Positions 47,933-54,692 of a DNA stretch of 64,000 nucleotides are shown here, one piece after another. Each line of letters opens with the position of its first letter. The first letter of the stretch is position 1. A program made the translations under genes and the position numbers. Source of the stretch: Halobacterium noricense (GTDB lineage: Archaea; Halobacteriota; Halobacteria; Halobacteriales; Halobacteriaceae); NCBI RefSeq assembly GCF_021233435.1, contig NZ_CP089469.1, positions 62,001 through 126,000 on the forward strand, written 5' to 3'. A model generated the notes under the pieces. That model saw only the letters and a program-made list of their open reading frames with translations, made no database searches and was not told where the DNA came from.

Positions 47933-49260
47933 TTGACATCCTCCTCCGCCTGAAGGCGGAGGAATCCCAACGCTTGGGATATTAGGGTTTGCAGTCTCCG
48001 TGTTCTCTCGGTGTGAACCGGCCGCTCTCGCGGTCGAACAGGAAGACTCCGGGCTGTGCCAACCAGCCGTTACTCATATCCCCGGTTGGGAGACTCTGAG
48101 TTATCTTTCGCCGAATGTTTACCGCACCATTCACGTCTGCGTTCATCGTCGTCCCGCAGGACGAGCAGACGTACAGACCACGCTCCACACGATTCGAGTT
48201 ACGAATCTGTCCGCAACACGAACATGTCTTCGAGGTGTTTTCCTCGTCTACGCGGTCAACGAGGATACCGTGTTCCTCGGCCTTGTATTCAAGCAGGTTC
48301 GTGAAGCGGTTGAACTCCCAGCCGTGGAGTTTCTTGTTCCCCGACGCCCCCCAATTCCGAGATTCTCCATCGTCGTCACGGATATCGCTGAGGTCGCCAA
48401 CAGCTATCGTCTCCACGCCTGCTTCGACACACCGTTGGACAATGTGCTTCGAGAGCGTGTGGAGAAAATGGTCCTTGCGTCGAGAGAGTGACCGGCGAGC
48501 CCTTACTGCTCGCTTCGACGGGCCGTTCTGGCCTTCGGTCTGGTACTGTTCACGGGTGAAGTAGTGCTTGTCCTCTTTGAGCGTGTTCCCCGGATACAAC
48601 TCCGAACGGCCGTCTTCGTAGTCGATAGCGAGGTAGTTGCTGATCCCGAGGTCGATACCCGCCGTCTTCTCGCCGGGTGCATCCTCGACGGGAATTGCTT
48701 TCTTGCAGACGAGGTGCAGTTCCCAACAGTCGCCGTTGTAGACGGCACGCACCTGCTGAATGTTCTCGACTACTACGTCGGGTCGGGTTTCGTACTCTGC
48801 GAGGATGAAGTCCGACCGACTCGCTTTCAGGTTGAAGCCTTTCGAGAGGCGAACCTGCCCGTGTTTGTCGTCGTGTTTGATGCCTTTCTGCTTCCACGTG
48901 ACGGTCGAGCGCGGGTGGTCGTCGCCACGTTTCCGATATCCGGGTGGGTTGTTGCCGTCGTCGGAGTTGTACCAGCCGGTGAACGCTTCAGCAAGTTCTT
49001 CGAGAACTCGCTGACTTGACTGCGAATGGAGGTCACTGTAGCGTTCGTGGTCTTTCAACTCCGATTTGAGTTCGGCTTCGTCGGGGATCTCACCATCTTC
49101 GTCCCACCGGTCTTGAATGTAGTAGCGGCCGACATTCCACAGTTTTGATGCTGCGAACCCGCACTGGTCGAGATCGTCACGAACCTGGCTGTGGTTCGTA
49201 ATGCGTGCGACGTAGGTGCGGGTTGTCTCCAGCATCGTACTGTTCATAACTAGTTATGGA
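47933..49260 (-). mobile_element. IS1341-type element (tnpB only)
   Basis: The right end at 47933 has TTGACATCC, the hairpin CCTCCGCC-TGAA-GGCGGAGG (47943-47962) and a second hairpin TCCCAA-CGC-TTGGGA. There is no tnpA. The left boundary beyond the tnpB start is not defined. A further hairpin CCACGG..CCGTGG lies at about 49350. Confidence 0.75.
47982..49247 (-). CDS. tnpB: TnpB-family protein with altered RuvC-II motif
   Basis: 421 residues. The RuvC-I Asp (AGIDLGISN) and RuvC-III Asp (NADVNGAVNI) are present, and the zinc finger is CSCCG..CSSCG. The RuvC-II block reads IAVGDLSDI where canonical TnpB has xVEDL, so the usual Glu is Gly. This could mean a nuclease-dead TnpB relative or one of the TnpB groups with a relocated Glu (a Glu in YKAEEHG or VDEENTS could serve). 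It differs strongly from the 44065 TnpB. Confidence 0.9.
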   Translation of the reverse strand: MNSTMLETTRTYVARITNHSQVRDDLDQCGFAASKLWNVGRYYIQDRWDEDGEIPDEAELKSELKDHERYSDLHSQSSQRVLEELAEAFTGWYNSDDGNNPPGYRKRGDDHPRSTVTWKQKGIKHDDKHGQVRLSKGFNLKASRSDFILAEYETRPDVVVENIQQVRAVYNGDCWELHLVCKKAIPVEDAPGEKTAGIDLGISNYLAIDYEDGRSELYPGNTLKEDKHYFTREQYQTEGQNGPSKRAVRARRSLSRRKDHFLHTLSKHIVQRCVEAGVETIAVGDLSDIRDDDGESRNWGASGNKKLHGWEFNRFTNLLEYKAEEHGILVDRVDEENTSKTCSCCGQIRNSNRVERGLYVCSSCGTTMNADVNGAVNIRRKITQSLPTGDMSNGWLAQPGVFLFDRESGRFTPREHGDCKP

Positions 49261-49725: not shown

Positions 49726-49770
49726 GGTTACTGAATTCGGTTACAGGTTACGTATACTGTTTCAGTAACC
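49726..49770. repeat. GTAACC iteron cluster 1
   Basis: GGTTAC at 49726, 49739 and 49746 and GTAACC at 49765, the last just inside the end of the parA partner gene. The same hexamer occurs in three more clusters flanking parA and the 269-residue gene. Confidence 0.75.
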
Positions 49771-50187
49771 GCCAGTCTGATCTAGGGCCTTCTGCTGTTC
49801 AGCTTCTGTTGCATCCTCCCGCACTTCTGGGAGCGCCTCACGGAGCCCGACGCGCATCAGTAACCGAGCGAGGTCACTCTGCGAGACACCATCCTCCGTG
49901 TCGATATCTTCGTCAAGAACGGCGCCAAGTTTCTTGGCTGTCTCGCCAAGCTGTCTAACATCGTTGAGGCCGACGAGGAGTGCCTTCAGTTGCGCGTCGC
50001 GAAAGTTGATGTTTTCCGGTGACTCGCCGTCCTCGATGGCGACGAGAGCGTCCTTAATTGCGGCGACGCGGTCGGCAGCGGCGTCTTGGTCGTCTTCGGT
50101 GCTGGTTGCCTGTGAGGTGTGGCGCTTCTGCTCTTTCGCTGCTTGGAGCGCTTCCTCGGCGTCGACATTGGATTGCTGGTCGGACAT
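49762..50187 (-). CDS. ParA partner protein (candidate centromere-binding factor)
   Basis: 141 residues, very acidic at the start, then helical (SQSDLARLLMRVGLREALPEV could be a DNA-binding helix pair). It follows parA by 2 bp, the usual position of a small ParB-like protein in plasmid partition operons. It has no ParB nuclease-fold motifs. The role is inferred from position; the iterons around the operon are its likely targets. Confidence 0.6.
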   Translation of the reverse strand: MSDQQSNVDAEEALQAAKEQKRHTSQATSTEDDQDAAADRVAAIKDALVAIEDGESPENINFRDAQLKALLVGLNDVRQLGETAKKLGAVLDEDIDTEDGVSQSDLARLLMRVGLREALPEVREDATEAEQQKALDQTGGY

Positions 50188-50189
50188 GA

Positions 50190-51050
50190 TTACTGGAGTT
50201 TGAGGTGATCGAGCAGGGTGGTGGTGTTCGTTCGGTACGCTTCGCGAGCGCGCTTGCCCGTCTGGTACAGCTCGTCGTCGTCTGCTGCGAACAACGTTCG
50301 GCCCTCAGCCTGGAGGTTTCCAATATTCTGGCTGTCTGCAACCGGGTCGCCGGCGATGTCGGGATAGGTTTCCTCAAGGTCGTCGACAAACTCGCCGGAC
50401 TGCTTCGTTGCTCCAGAAATCATCGTCGGGATGACCATCGAGAGGTGTGGGTGGACGTCGTGGGCGTCAAGGACGTCCCCGAGGTCCTCACGGATCGCTT
50501 CGAGGTCGTCGCGAAGGCTGTCGAGTTGGTCGCGCTCGAACGCACCCGGACAAAGCGGTGTGACGACGTGTTCGGCAGCGAAGATGCCGTTAAGCGCGAT
50601 GTTGTCTTCTTTGCCGGGCAAGTCCAGGACGACGAGGTCGTAGCGGTCTGCGAGCTGTTCGCTGATGAACGAGTCGAGTTTCAGATAGCGTTGCTCGACG
50701 GGGACAGAGGCAAGGTTATTGTCGGCGCCGCTAATGCCGGTGTCCGCGGGAATCAGGTCCGGGCCTTCACCAGTAGCGTAGACCATGCGGTCGACGATAT
50801 CCGGGATGTTGTCGACGATAAACTCCCAGTCGTCGCCGAAGACTGCGGAGATCGGTGCGTCAGGGTCTTCGACGTCGTCGACGATGCCGAACTGTGTGGC
50901 GAGGTCGTTCTGGGTGCCGGCGAGGTCCAAGAGAACGACATCGAGGTCGTGGTCGGTGGCAGCAGCTGTAGCGACATGGGCTGCGGAGGTTGTTTTTCCG
51001 ACGCCTCCTTTTTGGACGTAGAAGGCGGCGCGTGCTGTATCACGATTCAC
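50190..51050 (-). CDS. parA: ParA-family partition ATPase
   Basis: About 286 residues from the GTG at 51050. A longer frame to 51095 would translate the iterons as repeated Val-Thr, so the GTG is preferred. The deviant Walker A KGGVGKTTSA is near residue 15, Walker A' is VVLLDLAGTQND and the Walker B region is DLVVLDLPG. ParA moves replicons apart using ATP on the nucleoid. The start sits directly beside iteron cluster 2, which suggests autoregulation. Confidence 0.9.
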   Translation of the reverse strand: MNRDTARAAFYVQKGGVGKTTSAAHVATAAATDHDLDVVLLDLAGTQNDLATQFGIVDDVEDPDAPISAVFGDDWEFIVDNIPDIVDRMVYATGEGPDLIPADTGISGADNNLASVPVEQRYLKLDSFISEQLADRYDLVVLDLPGKEDNIALNGIFAAEHVVTPLCPGAFERDQLDSLRDDLEAIREDLGDVLDAHDVHPHLSMVIPTMISGATKQSGEFVDDLEETYPDIAGDPVADSQNIGNLQAEGRTLFAADDDELYQTGKRAREAYRTNTTTLLDHLKLQ

Positions 51051-51076
51051 GGTTACAGTAACCGTAACCACGTTAC
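51051..51076. repeat. GTAACC iteron cluster 2, at the parA promoter
   Basis: GGTTAC at 51051, GTAACC at 51058 and 51064, then CGTTAC at 51071. It lies immediately upstream of the chosen parA start and is a likely operator or partition site. Confidence 0.8.
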
Positions 51077-51322
51077 ATAAAGTTTCGTCAGACACTCAGT
51101 ATCCACCGCTGACCGCGAAGCGACAGTGATGCCGCTCGGTGGAAAGGTACCGCGCGCCGCTGAAGTGGTCGTAGGTGTGGAGCGCACCAAGGACGTGTAT
51201 CAGAGACACGGGGCGTGGCTATTGATCCGTGTGAGGATGCTAATGGCTCTCCCTCGATTCTCAAGGATACACGAACGTCTGAGACGAAGGAGCCAGTCAA
51301 ACAGACAAAGCGGCTGCTGGCT

Positions 51323-51348
51323 GTAACCAGTAACCGTAATCAGTAACC
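51323..51348. repeat. GTAACC iteron cluster 3
   Basis: GTAACC, A, GTAACC, GTAATC, A, GTAACC: a 13-bp unit repeated twice, differing by one base from the perfect cluster at 52403. A further GGTTAC lies at 51373. The 51096-51432 stretch between parA and the next gene otherwise holds no gene. Confidence 0.85.
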
Positions 51349-51432
51349 ATAGTGCGTGACTGTTGATTCGGTGGTTACAGGGACGTGAAACAGAACCCTC
51401 AATAAATCGGGGAATCATCGGTAAAATAGCCT

Positions 51433-52242
51433 GTGCGCCCGTTTAATGCCGGTGACTCGGAATACACCCGCTCTATCGCTATCGACGCCAGCACTATTGA
51501 CGGGATAACAGTCACGACGGCAGTTCTCTCGGAGCGTGATGACGAACTCTCCGTTCTTGATAGTATCTACGAAGCAGCGGAGGGTCACGAGTTCCGGCCG
51601 TTTCAGGACAAATCTCATCGTCTCGACTACGAGGGGAGTATTGACTTCTTCGAGACGGTCACCAATCAGAATAAGGACCGAGTGATCGCGACCTCGCACT
51701 TGGGACGGGACGGTTCGAACCCAGAGCGTGTCGAAGCAGTTCAGTCGGCCGTATTAGTGAATGAGCTGGCTGTTGACGACACGCTCGTTATTCTCGATGG
51801 TGCTGCCGATAAGGCGGATCGGTTTGGGCGCGCGTACTACGGGATCTCTGAAAATGTTCCACCGGTCGTGACCTGCATTCAATCAGAATACTACTATCCT
51901 GCTTCGCTCCTTGCGGACGTTTCCGCGAATCATCTTGCCCGGCAGATCGACCATCCTCGACACTGCTCAGCGGTTGATCCCGAAGCGCCCCAGACGAAGG
52001 AAGACTTCAACGACCGGTGGGGTAGTGCGTATAATTCTCTGTTCACCAATTCTAATCCGGTCGAAGTAGAGCCGATAACGCAGCGCCGCGCTGAGTCGGT
52101 CGCAAGCCGAGTGAACTGCTGGTATCGAGGCTGGATGGGGGGCGGAGAGCCTGACGAATTCAACCGGTCACTACGACCAGTTGCAGAGTACGCCCGGCGT
52201 CAAGGCTACGACAAGCTGGCATCGCGGCTATTGGAGATTTAG
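51433..52242 (+). CDS. unrecognised 269-residue protein of the partition locus
   Basis: A soluble protein, divergent from parA. The start SIAIDASTIDGITVTTAVL has the strand-turn-strand pattern of an RNase H-like fold with an early Asp. TLVILDGAADKADRFG could carry a second acidic residue, and the end is helical with Trp and Arg. A role in replication initiation or DNA processing is possible because it is enclosed by iteron clusters 3 and 4. I do not recognise the family and no catalytic claim is made. Confidence 0.7.
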   Translation: MRPFNAGDSEYTRSIAIDASTIDGITVTTAVLSERDDELSVLDSIYEAAEGHEFRPFQDKSHRLDYEGSIDFFETVTNQNKDRVIATSHLGRDGSNPERVEAVQSAVLVNELAVDDTLVILDGAADKADRFGRAYYGISENVPPVVTCIQSEYYYPASLLADVSANHLARQIDHPRHCSAVDPEAPQTKEDFNDRWGSAYNSLFTNSNPVEVEPITQRRAESVASRVNCWYRGWMGGGEPDEFNRSLRPVAEYARRQGYDKLASRLLEI

Positions 52243-52402
52243 AAGCAAGGTGGGATTGCTGCACCCACGTCCATCTTCAACGCCCGTCGGCTTGCGCCTC
52301 AAGGCTTGCGGGTCATGGTCATGCAGCCTCCACGCGGCACCTTCCGCGCTCACCTAGAACACACTCCCACGCTCATATAGAGCTTTTGGAGAAACGCTCG
52401 AC

Positions 52403-52428
52403 GTAACCAGTAACCGTAACCAGTAACC
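52403..52428. repeat. GTAACC iteron cluster 4
   Basis: GTAACC, A, GTAACC, twice, without a mismatch: a perfect 13-bp tandem. It lies 160 bp after the 269-residue gene. The stretch 52243-52402 holds no gene. Confidence 0.88.
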
Positions 52429-52463: not shown

Positions 52464-52790
52464 GACATCCTCCTCCGCGTTCACGCAGAGGAATCCCGAG
52501 CGGTGAGAGTTTCAGGTTTGCAGTCCCACCGAACCCCGACACGGTAAGAATCCGTGTGGGGTTCACGGACTGAGTGGGTGGGAGTGCCAAGCCCCCGGTA
52601 CTCCTATCCTCGGTCAGATCGGGACTCCCAGGGTTGTTTTTGCCTCAAGGGAGTCCCCCAGACTTCGACGGACTCGGAGTTACTTTTCGTGGTGCGTACA
52701 GCAGTCCGGCACAGCGCTGGTTCATTATAGGAACCAGCCGTTCACCAGACTGATTCCGGATACTGTCGTCCGAGAGACGCGGTTTCTCGT
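52464..52790 (-). mobile_element. relic of an IS1341-type element: tnpB 3' end and right end
   Basis: TTGACATCC with a hairpin CCTCCGCG-TTCA-CGCAGAGG matches the 47933 right end. Further in, GGTTTGCAGTC and the region near 52680 align with the end of the tnpB at 47982, including the terminal DCKP. The frames are broken, so only the structured 3' part is left. Confidence 0.65.
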
Positions 52791-52900: not shown

Positions 52901-53785
52901 ATGATGCCAATCAAGACGTTCGTCTCGGAGCGTCGCGCCGCGAATCTGCTGGCACAGATTCGCTGGCGTGACGGCGTCTATTGCCCGCGCTGCCGTGACG
53001 AATCTGTGATTCGGTACGGCAGCTATCGCGTGTTTCAACGGTATCTGTGTAAGGATTGCGACCGGACGTTCAACGATCAAACTGGCACCGTCTTCGAACA
53101 CTCGGCGGTCGCACTCAGAAAATGGTTTCTCGCCGTCTACACCTACATCCGCATGAACACGAGCGTCAGGCAGCTAGACGCAGAGATCGACGTTTCCTAC
53201 AAGACGGTCTACCGGCGCGTCCAGCGCTTCTTGCGAGCGCTGGACGCGCCTCGACCACACCTCAAAGGCCCCGTTGAGATCGACGAATTCTACGTGAAAG
53301 CGGGTCTCAAGGGCCGCGAGCGCGACCAACCGTCGCGCTCGCGTGGCCTGTCCACGCGCGGGCGTGGAACATACGCTGAGGACAAGCTCCCTGTGTTTGT
53401 TCTCGCAGATCGTGGCACCGGTGAACGGCACGTGATCCCAGCGAAAGCCGCAACCGAATCACGGATTCGACTCCTCCTGGCTGCCCGCCAGCAGGAGTCG
53501 TTAACCGTCTACACAGACGGGTTTCGGGCGTACGACCCACTTGACGAGGACGACGCATTCACCCGTCAATACGTCGTCCACGGTGACGGCGAGTACGTCG
53601 ATGGAGCCGTTCACGTGAACACCTGCGAGAGCCACGCGTCGCTGGCGCGACGGTGGCTCTCGCCGCATCGAGGCATCTCGAAAGACAGACTCACACCGTA
53701 TCTCCGAGCGTTTCAGCTCCGCCGTGAAGTATTCCGAAAACCGGGGAAAGAAGCGCTCAAAACCACCCTCGAAACTGCGCTATGA
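52901..53785 (+). CDS. IS1595-family transposase, copy C
   Basis: 294 residues, the same architecture as copies A and B (CPRCRDE..CKDCDRTF zinc ribbon, VEIDEFYV, LTVYTDGFRAY, HVNTCESHASLARRW) with roughly 70-75% identity by eye. Intact. Its inverted repeats lie at the same codons as in copy A but with substituted, still complementary, bases. Confidence 0.93.
   Translation: MMPIKTFVSERRAANLLAQIRWRDGVYCPRCRDESVIRYGSYRVFQRYLCKDCDRTFNDQTGTVFEHSAVALRKWFLAVYTYIRMNTSVRQLDAEIDVSYKTVYRRVQRFLRALDAPRPHLKGPVEIDEFYVKAGLKGRERDQPSRSRGLSTRGRGTYAEDKLPVFVLADRGTGERHVIPAKAATESRIRLLLAARQQESLTVYTDGFRAYDPLDEDDAFTRQYVVHGDGEYVDGAVHVNTCESHASLARRWLSPHRGISKDRLTPYLRAFQLRREVFRKPGKEALKTTLETAL
53214..53250. repeat. 15-bp-arm inverted repeat in IS1595 transposase gene (copy C)
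   Basis: GGCGCGTCCAGCGCT pairs perfectly with 53236-53250. It is the counterpart of 33007-33043 with one compensated pair change. Confidence 0.93.
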
Positions 53786-54141: not shown

Positions 54142-54692
54142 TTAGTAGATACCGTTCGTAACGGACGTCGGTGCCGACAGCCTTGGAATGGTCGTGCTCT
54201 GGATGTCGTACCGGGCGTCCCCTCGGAGGGAAGTGACGACGCCACCCCGCTCTGAGAACGCTAATGGTTGTCGTCGCCGAACCAGCCACGCTCTTCGAGT
54301 TCGCTTCGCAGTCGCTCGACTGCAGCAGCCTTGTCGCCGTCGCCGACGACGATCACCTCCCACGGTTTGAGGCCGATTTTCCCACCTTCGACCCAGTAGT
54401 CGATATCGCCCTCGAGGATGACTTCGGTCCTGTCCTCGAGGTCGGCGTCCATCTCCCGGTAACGGTTCGCCCAGATCATACAGGGGAGCTCGGCGTCGCC
54501 GTCGGTGAGCGTGAAGTAGAGCGCCGTACTGTTCTTGTGGAGGCCAGTGACCTCCCCGATACAGCGGACGCCGTTGAGGGCAGGCGTGTCCTGGACGACC
54601 GACGCGATCCGGTCGTTCAGCTGGGATACGCTAAGGACCTCTCTCGCATCGGGTTCGACCGCCTCCCATTCGGTATCCGATGCGTCCGCCAT
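54142..54692 (-). pseudogene. xseA: exonuclease VII large subunit, truncated and frameshifted
   Basis: Residues 1-143 (54692-54261) are the N-terminal OB-fold domain of XseA: LSVSQLNDRIASVVQDTP, GEVTGLHKNSTALYFTL and CMIWANRY. The frame then ends, but the next XseA block (VVTSLRGDARYDIQ) continues in another frame at about 54250-54180. Beyond that the catalytic domain is missing. The OB domain alone could still bind single-stranded DNA. Confidence 0.8.

Follow-up and report, generated by a model that had tools for sequence, protein, structure and literature searches.

Locus organization

Four tight clusters of the hexamer GTAACC, or of its complement GGTTAC, surround a parA operon on a haloarchaeal replicon, and the question that they raise is whether they mark a partition site, a replication origin, or something else. 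The clusters are located in a 64,000-bp window (positions 62001-126000 of C2, a 368,639-bp contig of a three-contig haloarchaeal genome), and the features of the region are collected in Table 1. According to the analysis described here, the boxes most likely serve as docking sites, or "centromere", and at the same time as the self-control switch of a ParA-type machine that distributes plasmid copies when the cell divides. In halophilic archaea the simultaneous segregation of the chromosome and several megaplasmids has been listed as an open question (PMC5120986), and archaea generally lack a chromosomal ParABS system (PMC12704722).

Table 1. Features of the parA region (window coordinates).
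Feature	Coordinates	Strand	Remarks
GTAACC array 1	49726..49751	-	GGTTAC-T-GAATTC-GGTTAC-A-GGTTAC (7-6-7); directly after the parB stop
parB-like partner gene	49762..50187	-	141 aa, acidic, unnamed family, RHH-like C-terminal signature
parA	50190..51050	-	Walker-type ParA ATPase, no N-terminal HTH region
GTAACC array 2	51051..51076	-	GTAACG-T-GGTTAC-GGTTAC-T-GTAACC; spans parA TATA box to start codon
parA TATA-like element TTTATG	51077..51083	-	Immediately upstream of array 2; also in homologous loci
GTAACC array 3	51323..51348	+	GTAACC-A-GTAACC-GTAATC-A-GTAACC; single box 51373-51378 nearby; kept in L070
269-aa gene	51433..52242	+	Possibly RNase H-like
Predicted structured ncRNA	52246..52351	-	Convergent with the 269-aa gene; conserved in relatives; covariation
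TATA box CTCTATATG	52374-52382	-	TATA box of the predicted ncRNA
BRE-like CCAAAAG	52383-52389	-	Adjoins the ncRNA TATA box
GTAACC array 4	52403..52428	+	Perfect tetrad (GTAACCAGTAACC)x2; identical in G014:C4, G008:C4, G368:C50

The GTAACC arrays

The clusters reported by a first-pass annotation at nucleotides 49726-49770, 51051-51076, 51323-51348 and 52403-52428 were all found at these positions, and they have in common a 26-bp design consisting of four hexamer half-sites with a spacing of 7-6-7 bp. The numbers of mismatches to this tetrad are three at 49726, one at 51051, one at 51323 and none at 52403. A scan of C2 for half-sites with the 7-6-7 spacing returned these four clusters (0 to 3 mismatches) and no other match on the contig, and tetrads with up to four mismatches were absent when C2 was shuffled 12 times under a second-order Markov model (4.4 Mb of sequence). 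The last cluster is, as had been described, a perfect tandem of the 13-bp unit GTAACCAGTAACC. When up to one mismatch was allowed, the 13-bp unit was found in the whole genome at this locus only, with the addition of one chromosomal copy with one mismatch. The second box of array 1 is degenerate (GAATTC), array 2 is a full tetrad in mixed orientation (<>><) with CGTTAC as the fourth box, and arrays 3 and 4 consist of four direct repeats each. Isolated additional boxes start at 49765, 49860 and 51373, the first of which (49765-49770) overlaps the end of parB.

The total count of the hexamer is ordinary, with 29 copies of GTAACC or GGTTAC in the window versus 20.5 +/- 4.9 after shuffling (29 or more in 9 of 100 shuffles). 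The clustering, on the other hand, is exceptional: groups of at least three boxes occur only at this locus on C2, and none was found in 60 first-order Markov shuffles of the contig.

parA and its partner gene

The parA and 141-aa genes form one minus-strand operon. The ParA protein matches the AAA_31 (6.8e-17) and CbiA (3.8e-10) profiles, both above the curated cut-offs, as well as ParA/Soj proteins in PDB. Two GTG codons could initiate translation, and the one at 51050 is favored over that at 51095 because homologues start at the former position and because the longer ORF would be translated through array 2. With starts chosen near the P-loop, roughly 13 residues separate this motif from the start so assigned; independent annotation gives lengths of 278-295 aa for ParA in relatives. 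The DNA upstream of the start is occupied by the array and the TATA box, and array 2 fills the gap between TTTATG and the start codon, so placed that a protein bound to it would prevent transcription. The locus thus combines a Walker-type ParA ATPase, a partner gene in the same operon and centromere-like repeats at this operon, as expected of type I partition systems, and the ParA lacks the N-terminal HTH region, as in type Ib. Where a parA was identified in homologous loci, its distance to parB is almost always -17 to +3 bp.

The 141-aa partner matched no Pfam or NCBIfam family. The ParBc/HTH domains (PF02195, PF17762) that would be expected of a ParB-CTPase were detected neither in this protein nor in the other family members scanned, and a ParB profile gave no credible match among PDB sequences. 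Comparison with ribbon-helix-helix (RHH) profiles using hhalign aligned RHH helix B only, over 17 columns (P 4.5e-4, probability 33%), and one member of the partner family showed a weak RHH_1 match (E 0.55). An AlphaFold model generated without an alignment was unusable (pLDDT 52). We therefore hold more strongly that the locus works like a type Ib partition system than that the partner is an RHH protein. We consider the partner a putative centromere-binding protein and repressor. No description of the protein or of the repeats was found in the open-access literature, where prior descriptions may be missed.

Related arrays on other haloarchaeal plasmids

The 26-bp tetrads are present in corresponding places on the 21.6-kb contig G014:C4, on the H. 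salinarum plasmid pKBTZ03_437, and in Halorubrum halophilum, with ParB identities to the window protein of 62%, 61% and 96%, respectively. An array is found at the same place as array 1 in loci L070 (2345-2370) and L058 (27707-27732), and the array 2 tetrad occupies the equivalent place in L053, L058 and L070. The reading as a partition site, one of two offered by the first-pass annotation, is supported by the same arrays bracketing homologous parA-parB operons on other plasmids. Tetrads with up to three mismatches were detected in 4 of 391 haloarchaeal genomes; three of these carry the ParB clade of the window, and the fourth (G008) has a truncated 269-aa gene together with array 4 (G008:C4), with no ParB match. 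The 54-kb contig C3 of the same genome as the window includes a distant ParA-ParB pair (G000:C3 1-190, locus L060; ParB 27-35% identical depending on the alignment), which is preceded by a 6-bp periodic repeat of ACG type and not by GTAACC. Scans of a viral collection with the ParB profile, the 269-aa profile and the array patterns revealed no relatives. A 19-bp pattern, GGTTACGGTTACTGTAACC, was seen on three viral contigs, and clusters of this type are located on viral contigs L071 (5300-5395) and L073 (5098-5337), outside the haloarchaeal par loci studied.

A common design in haloarchaeal parAB loci

Homologues detected with the partner profile are present in 77 of the 391 haloarchaeal genomes and in 31 of 86 genera. 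The Halomontanus locus L027, whose partner is not homologous, was left out of the ParB alignment. The 66 bp at the parA start were compared with the 150 bp after parB in 62 non-redundant loci whose parA had been identified. The two flanks had a mean of 7.48 7-mers in common versus 1.44 for unrelated pairs (permutation p ~2e-4), whereas control regions of the same loci gave 1.43 (300-450 bp beyond parB), 1.66 (upstream DNA) and 0.48 (within parA), and shuffled sequence gave 1.51. At least four 7-mers were shared in 48 of the 62 loci and fewer than four in the other 14. The parA starts were parsed automatically and are wrong in some loci, an error that should weaken the flank signal and not create it.

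The repeated words fall into classes according to the ParB clade, namely GTAACC, GTATCT/GTATAC, CGTATAC, CGTTTGC, CCTATAG and AAACAG. Distances between repeats peak at 6, 12-13 and 24-26 bp, and the pair spacing of 12-13 bp is kept across classes: 13 bp (7+6) is favored in the GTAACC, GTATCT and AAACAG classes, and 12 bp in the CCTATAG, CGTATAC and CGTTTGC classes. Mapping of the word classes onto a maximum-likelihood ParB tree required 11 changes versus 38 after shuffling (none of 200 shuffles as low); the classes were named after viewing the sequences, so this test measures their clustering and is not an independent prediction. Since members of one class span different host families, the motif is tied to ParB more closely than to the host. 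The agreement between motif and tree supports a direct match between protein and DNA but does not prove it, because vertical descent alone could produce the same agreement. Several genomes hold modules of different classes, such as G368 (GTAACC, CGTATAC and CCTATAG) and G200 (GTATCT and CCTATAG), and a few have two modules of one class. That array sequences change in step with the partner protein among the haloarchaea speaks for the reading as a partition site.

These loci provide a concrete candidate for segregation in haloarchaea, with a partner family found in about one-fifth of the sampled genomes. Its predicted binding sites and its specificity classes are directly testable by DNA binding and plasmid incompatibility, and the occurrence of the same layout with different box sequences on haloarchaeal plasmids suggests a means by which several plasmids are kept apart in one cell.

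Origin, operator or mobile repeat

Origins of replication associated with Orc1/Cdc6 in haloarchaea have clustered repeats on replicons beside a maintenance gene, a likeness to the locus studied here. The first-pass annotation had offered an iteron origin as an alternative to a partition site while remarking that no Orc1/Cdc6 was visible. This remark is correct as far as the window goes, but elsewhere C2 includes several full-length Orc1/Cdc6 genes, which score above the curated cut-off at approximately 36, 154, 181, 190, 246, 328 and 343 kb. The module is located at 111.7-114.4 kb of C2, about 40 kb from the nearest of them. If the clusters were the iterons of a Rep protein, the initiator would have to be the 269-aa or the 141-aa protein. 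The iteron-like direct repeats lie beside an uncharacterized gene, neither Orc1/Cdc6 nor a RepH-type initiator was recognized among the ORFs scanned at the repeats, and small replicons such as G014:C4 have the arrays too, all of which are points in favor of this reading. However, in pKBTZ03_437 the arrays are located at parAB, 11 kb away from an Orc1/Cdc6 gene and with no adjoining 269-aa gene, and GTAACC clusters are absent from most 269-aa relatives. The hexamer half-sites in 26-bp tetrads that track ParB also differ from the repeats of Orc1/Cdc6 origins. The cumulative GC skew of C2, which had been proposed as a check, is noisy and shows no extremum at the locus. The iteron origin is therefore left without support, and we regard it as highly doubtful. 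The 269-aa protein was rejected as an initiator, its relatives adjoining restriction, toxin-antitoxin or other genes with no repeats in common. Two of the Orc1/Cdc6 genes (G000:C2 36370-37503 and 190453-191586) have identical scores, and near-identical stretches containing GTAACC are found at positions 76182 and 242690 of the same contig; these pairs suggest large duplications within C2.

It is unlikely, although less so, that the arrays are operators only, with ParB as an autorepressor, regulatory arrays on the side of the 269-aa gene, and no role in segregation. Array 2 sits in the parA promoter, and arrays 3 and 4 precede the 269-aa gene and the predicted promoter of the ncRNA, as this explanation would have it, but most loci also have an array after the parB stop, where no operon promoter is expected, and a ParA gene adjoining a DNA-binding candidate favors segregation. 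If the arrays had spread as a recombination hot spot or small mobile repeat belonging to the 269-aa/ncRNA cassette, with no function for ParB, this could explain why the cassette that they flank precedes parA in the window but follows parB in G014:C4, and why the truncated cassette of G008:C4 keeps array 4. Such a spread is scarcely credible, given that pKBTZ03_437 has three arrays around parAB and no cassette, that other parAB clades have arrays of differing sequence in the same places, and that most 269-aa relatives are without them.

A putative partition module

We thus consider it very probable that the locus is the partition module of a low-copy plasmid, in which the four tetrads are parS sites for the putative ParB, array 2 is also an operator, and the half-sites are matched to this ParB. 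The sequence itself shows the arrays, with their geometry, positions and conservation across plasmids, and the agreement of their motifs with the ParB tree, whereas binding by ParB, its action as a repressor, partition and incompatibility are inferred. On the four tetrads of 26 bp, dimers of the 141-aa protein would occupy the hexamer half-sites in tandem, and together the tetrads would constitute the plasmid centromere. The ParB-parS complexes would stimulate and follow nucleoid-bound ParA, and plasmid copies would in this way be moved apart. Array 2, a putative operator and parS site that separates the parA TATA box from the start codon, would allow bound ParB to block transcription and so keep ParA and ParB levels low. 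Arrays 3 and 4 are putative additional parS sites; that they flank the 269-aa cassette and not parAB is a point against the partition reading. With the same design and different half-site sequences, each matched to its own ParB, homologous systems could coexist in one cell.

The type Ib system of TP228, ParF-ParG-parH, includes a ParA without an N-terminal HTH, a small partner encoded directly downstream and a centromere upstream of parA. The window locus, with its putative centromere, resembles it in these three respects, but the repeat sequences are different and the partner is not demonstrably homologous to ParG. The closest experimental model is the delta/omega (ParA/RHH-ParB) system of the Streptococcus plasmid pSM19035, in which parS consists of 7-10 consecutive 7-bp direct or inverted repeats that overlap promoters and are bound by the RHH-ParB, four contiguous repeats being needed to activate ParA (PMC9499535). 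Both systems have short contiguous repeats in direct and inverted orientation (7 bp there, 6-7 bp spacing here) and several sites per plasmid with promoter overlap, and the four half-sites per array found here fit closely the four in a row needed there. By this analogy the best reading is that ParB binds the arrays as parS and as parA operator, as omega does on pSM19035. Unlike pSM19035, the host is archaeal, the partner of about 141 aa showed no sequence match to omega, repeats are also located directly after parB, and the repeat sequence has diversified by clade. The archaeal systems AspA-ParB-ParA of pNOB8 and SegAB of Sulfolobales likewise combine a ParA-family ATPase with a small DNA-binding partner, here a candidate (PMC5120986, PMC12284271), but differ from the two-gene operon described here, with a partner outside the named families and iteron-type arrays on both sides, on haloarchaeal plasmids.

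In a broader sense, we lean with some reserve toward an undescribed haloarchaeal partition family in which the half-sites obey a fixed grammar (pairs of 12-13 bp, with arrays ahead of parA and behind parB) while their sequence would have diversified with ParB into at least five classes that act as a compatibility code, accompanied at this locus by a separate undescribed cassette of a 269-aa gene and an RNA of about 105 nt, maybe for addiction or defense.

The 269-aa gene and the predicted structured RNA

The first-pass annotation had named the 269-residue gene, together with parA and its partner gene, among those that the clusters flank. It is better regarded as an accessory cassette than as a core partition gene: it is absent beside parAB in pKBTZ03_437 and it occurs elsewhere without GTAACC boxes. 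Homologues were detected in 33 of the 391 haloarchaeal genomes, and numerous plasmids of haloarchaea encode relatives, in many cases close to restriction, Fic or toxin-antitoxin genes. In L027 (NZ_CP135523.1, nucleotides 200-2402) a homologue follows a parA with an unrelated partner, and the cassette is therefore associated with partition loci at least twice. A gene with a Piwi domain is located a few kb from this homologue. The 269-aa protein has no Pfam match; comparison with DUF3800 (PF12686) by hhalign aligned only a P-LLADL-A stretch (P 0.096), and the AlphaFold model generated without an alignment was unusable.

The ncRNA element is found downstream of nearly all 269-aa relatives, down to about 30% protein identity, including the homologues in L021-L032 and L170-L195. 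In its helices 98.1% of cells are paired, with a covariation of 0.392 versus 0.134 after shuffling (0 of 500 as high), and seven pairs are changed on both sides; since the structure had been drawn from the sequences that were scored, it is at an advantage over slid controls. Searches of Rfam with cmscan yielded no match at 52246-52351 to E 5, and the corresponding element of five related loci likewise had none up to E 1. The gene and the RNA likely form an ncRNA-protein cassette, which we offer as a lead and not as a conclusion; it may be a new one, possibly with a role in addiction or defense.

The region is bordered by a TnpB gene on one side (47982-49247, minus strand) and by a gene for an IS1595-family transposase on the other (52901-53785, plus strand). 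A sub-threshold match to sot0042, a sense overlapping transcript, is located at 52471-52685 on the minus strand, and an ORF at 54261-54692 (minus strand) encodes a 143-aa protein that matches only the N-terminal OB-fold part of the exodeoxyribonuclease VII large subunit (XseA).
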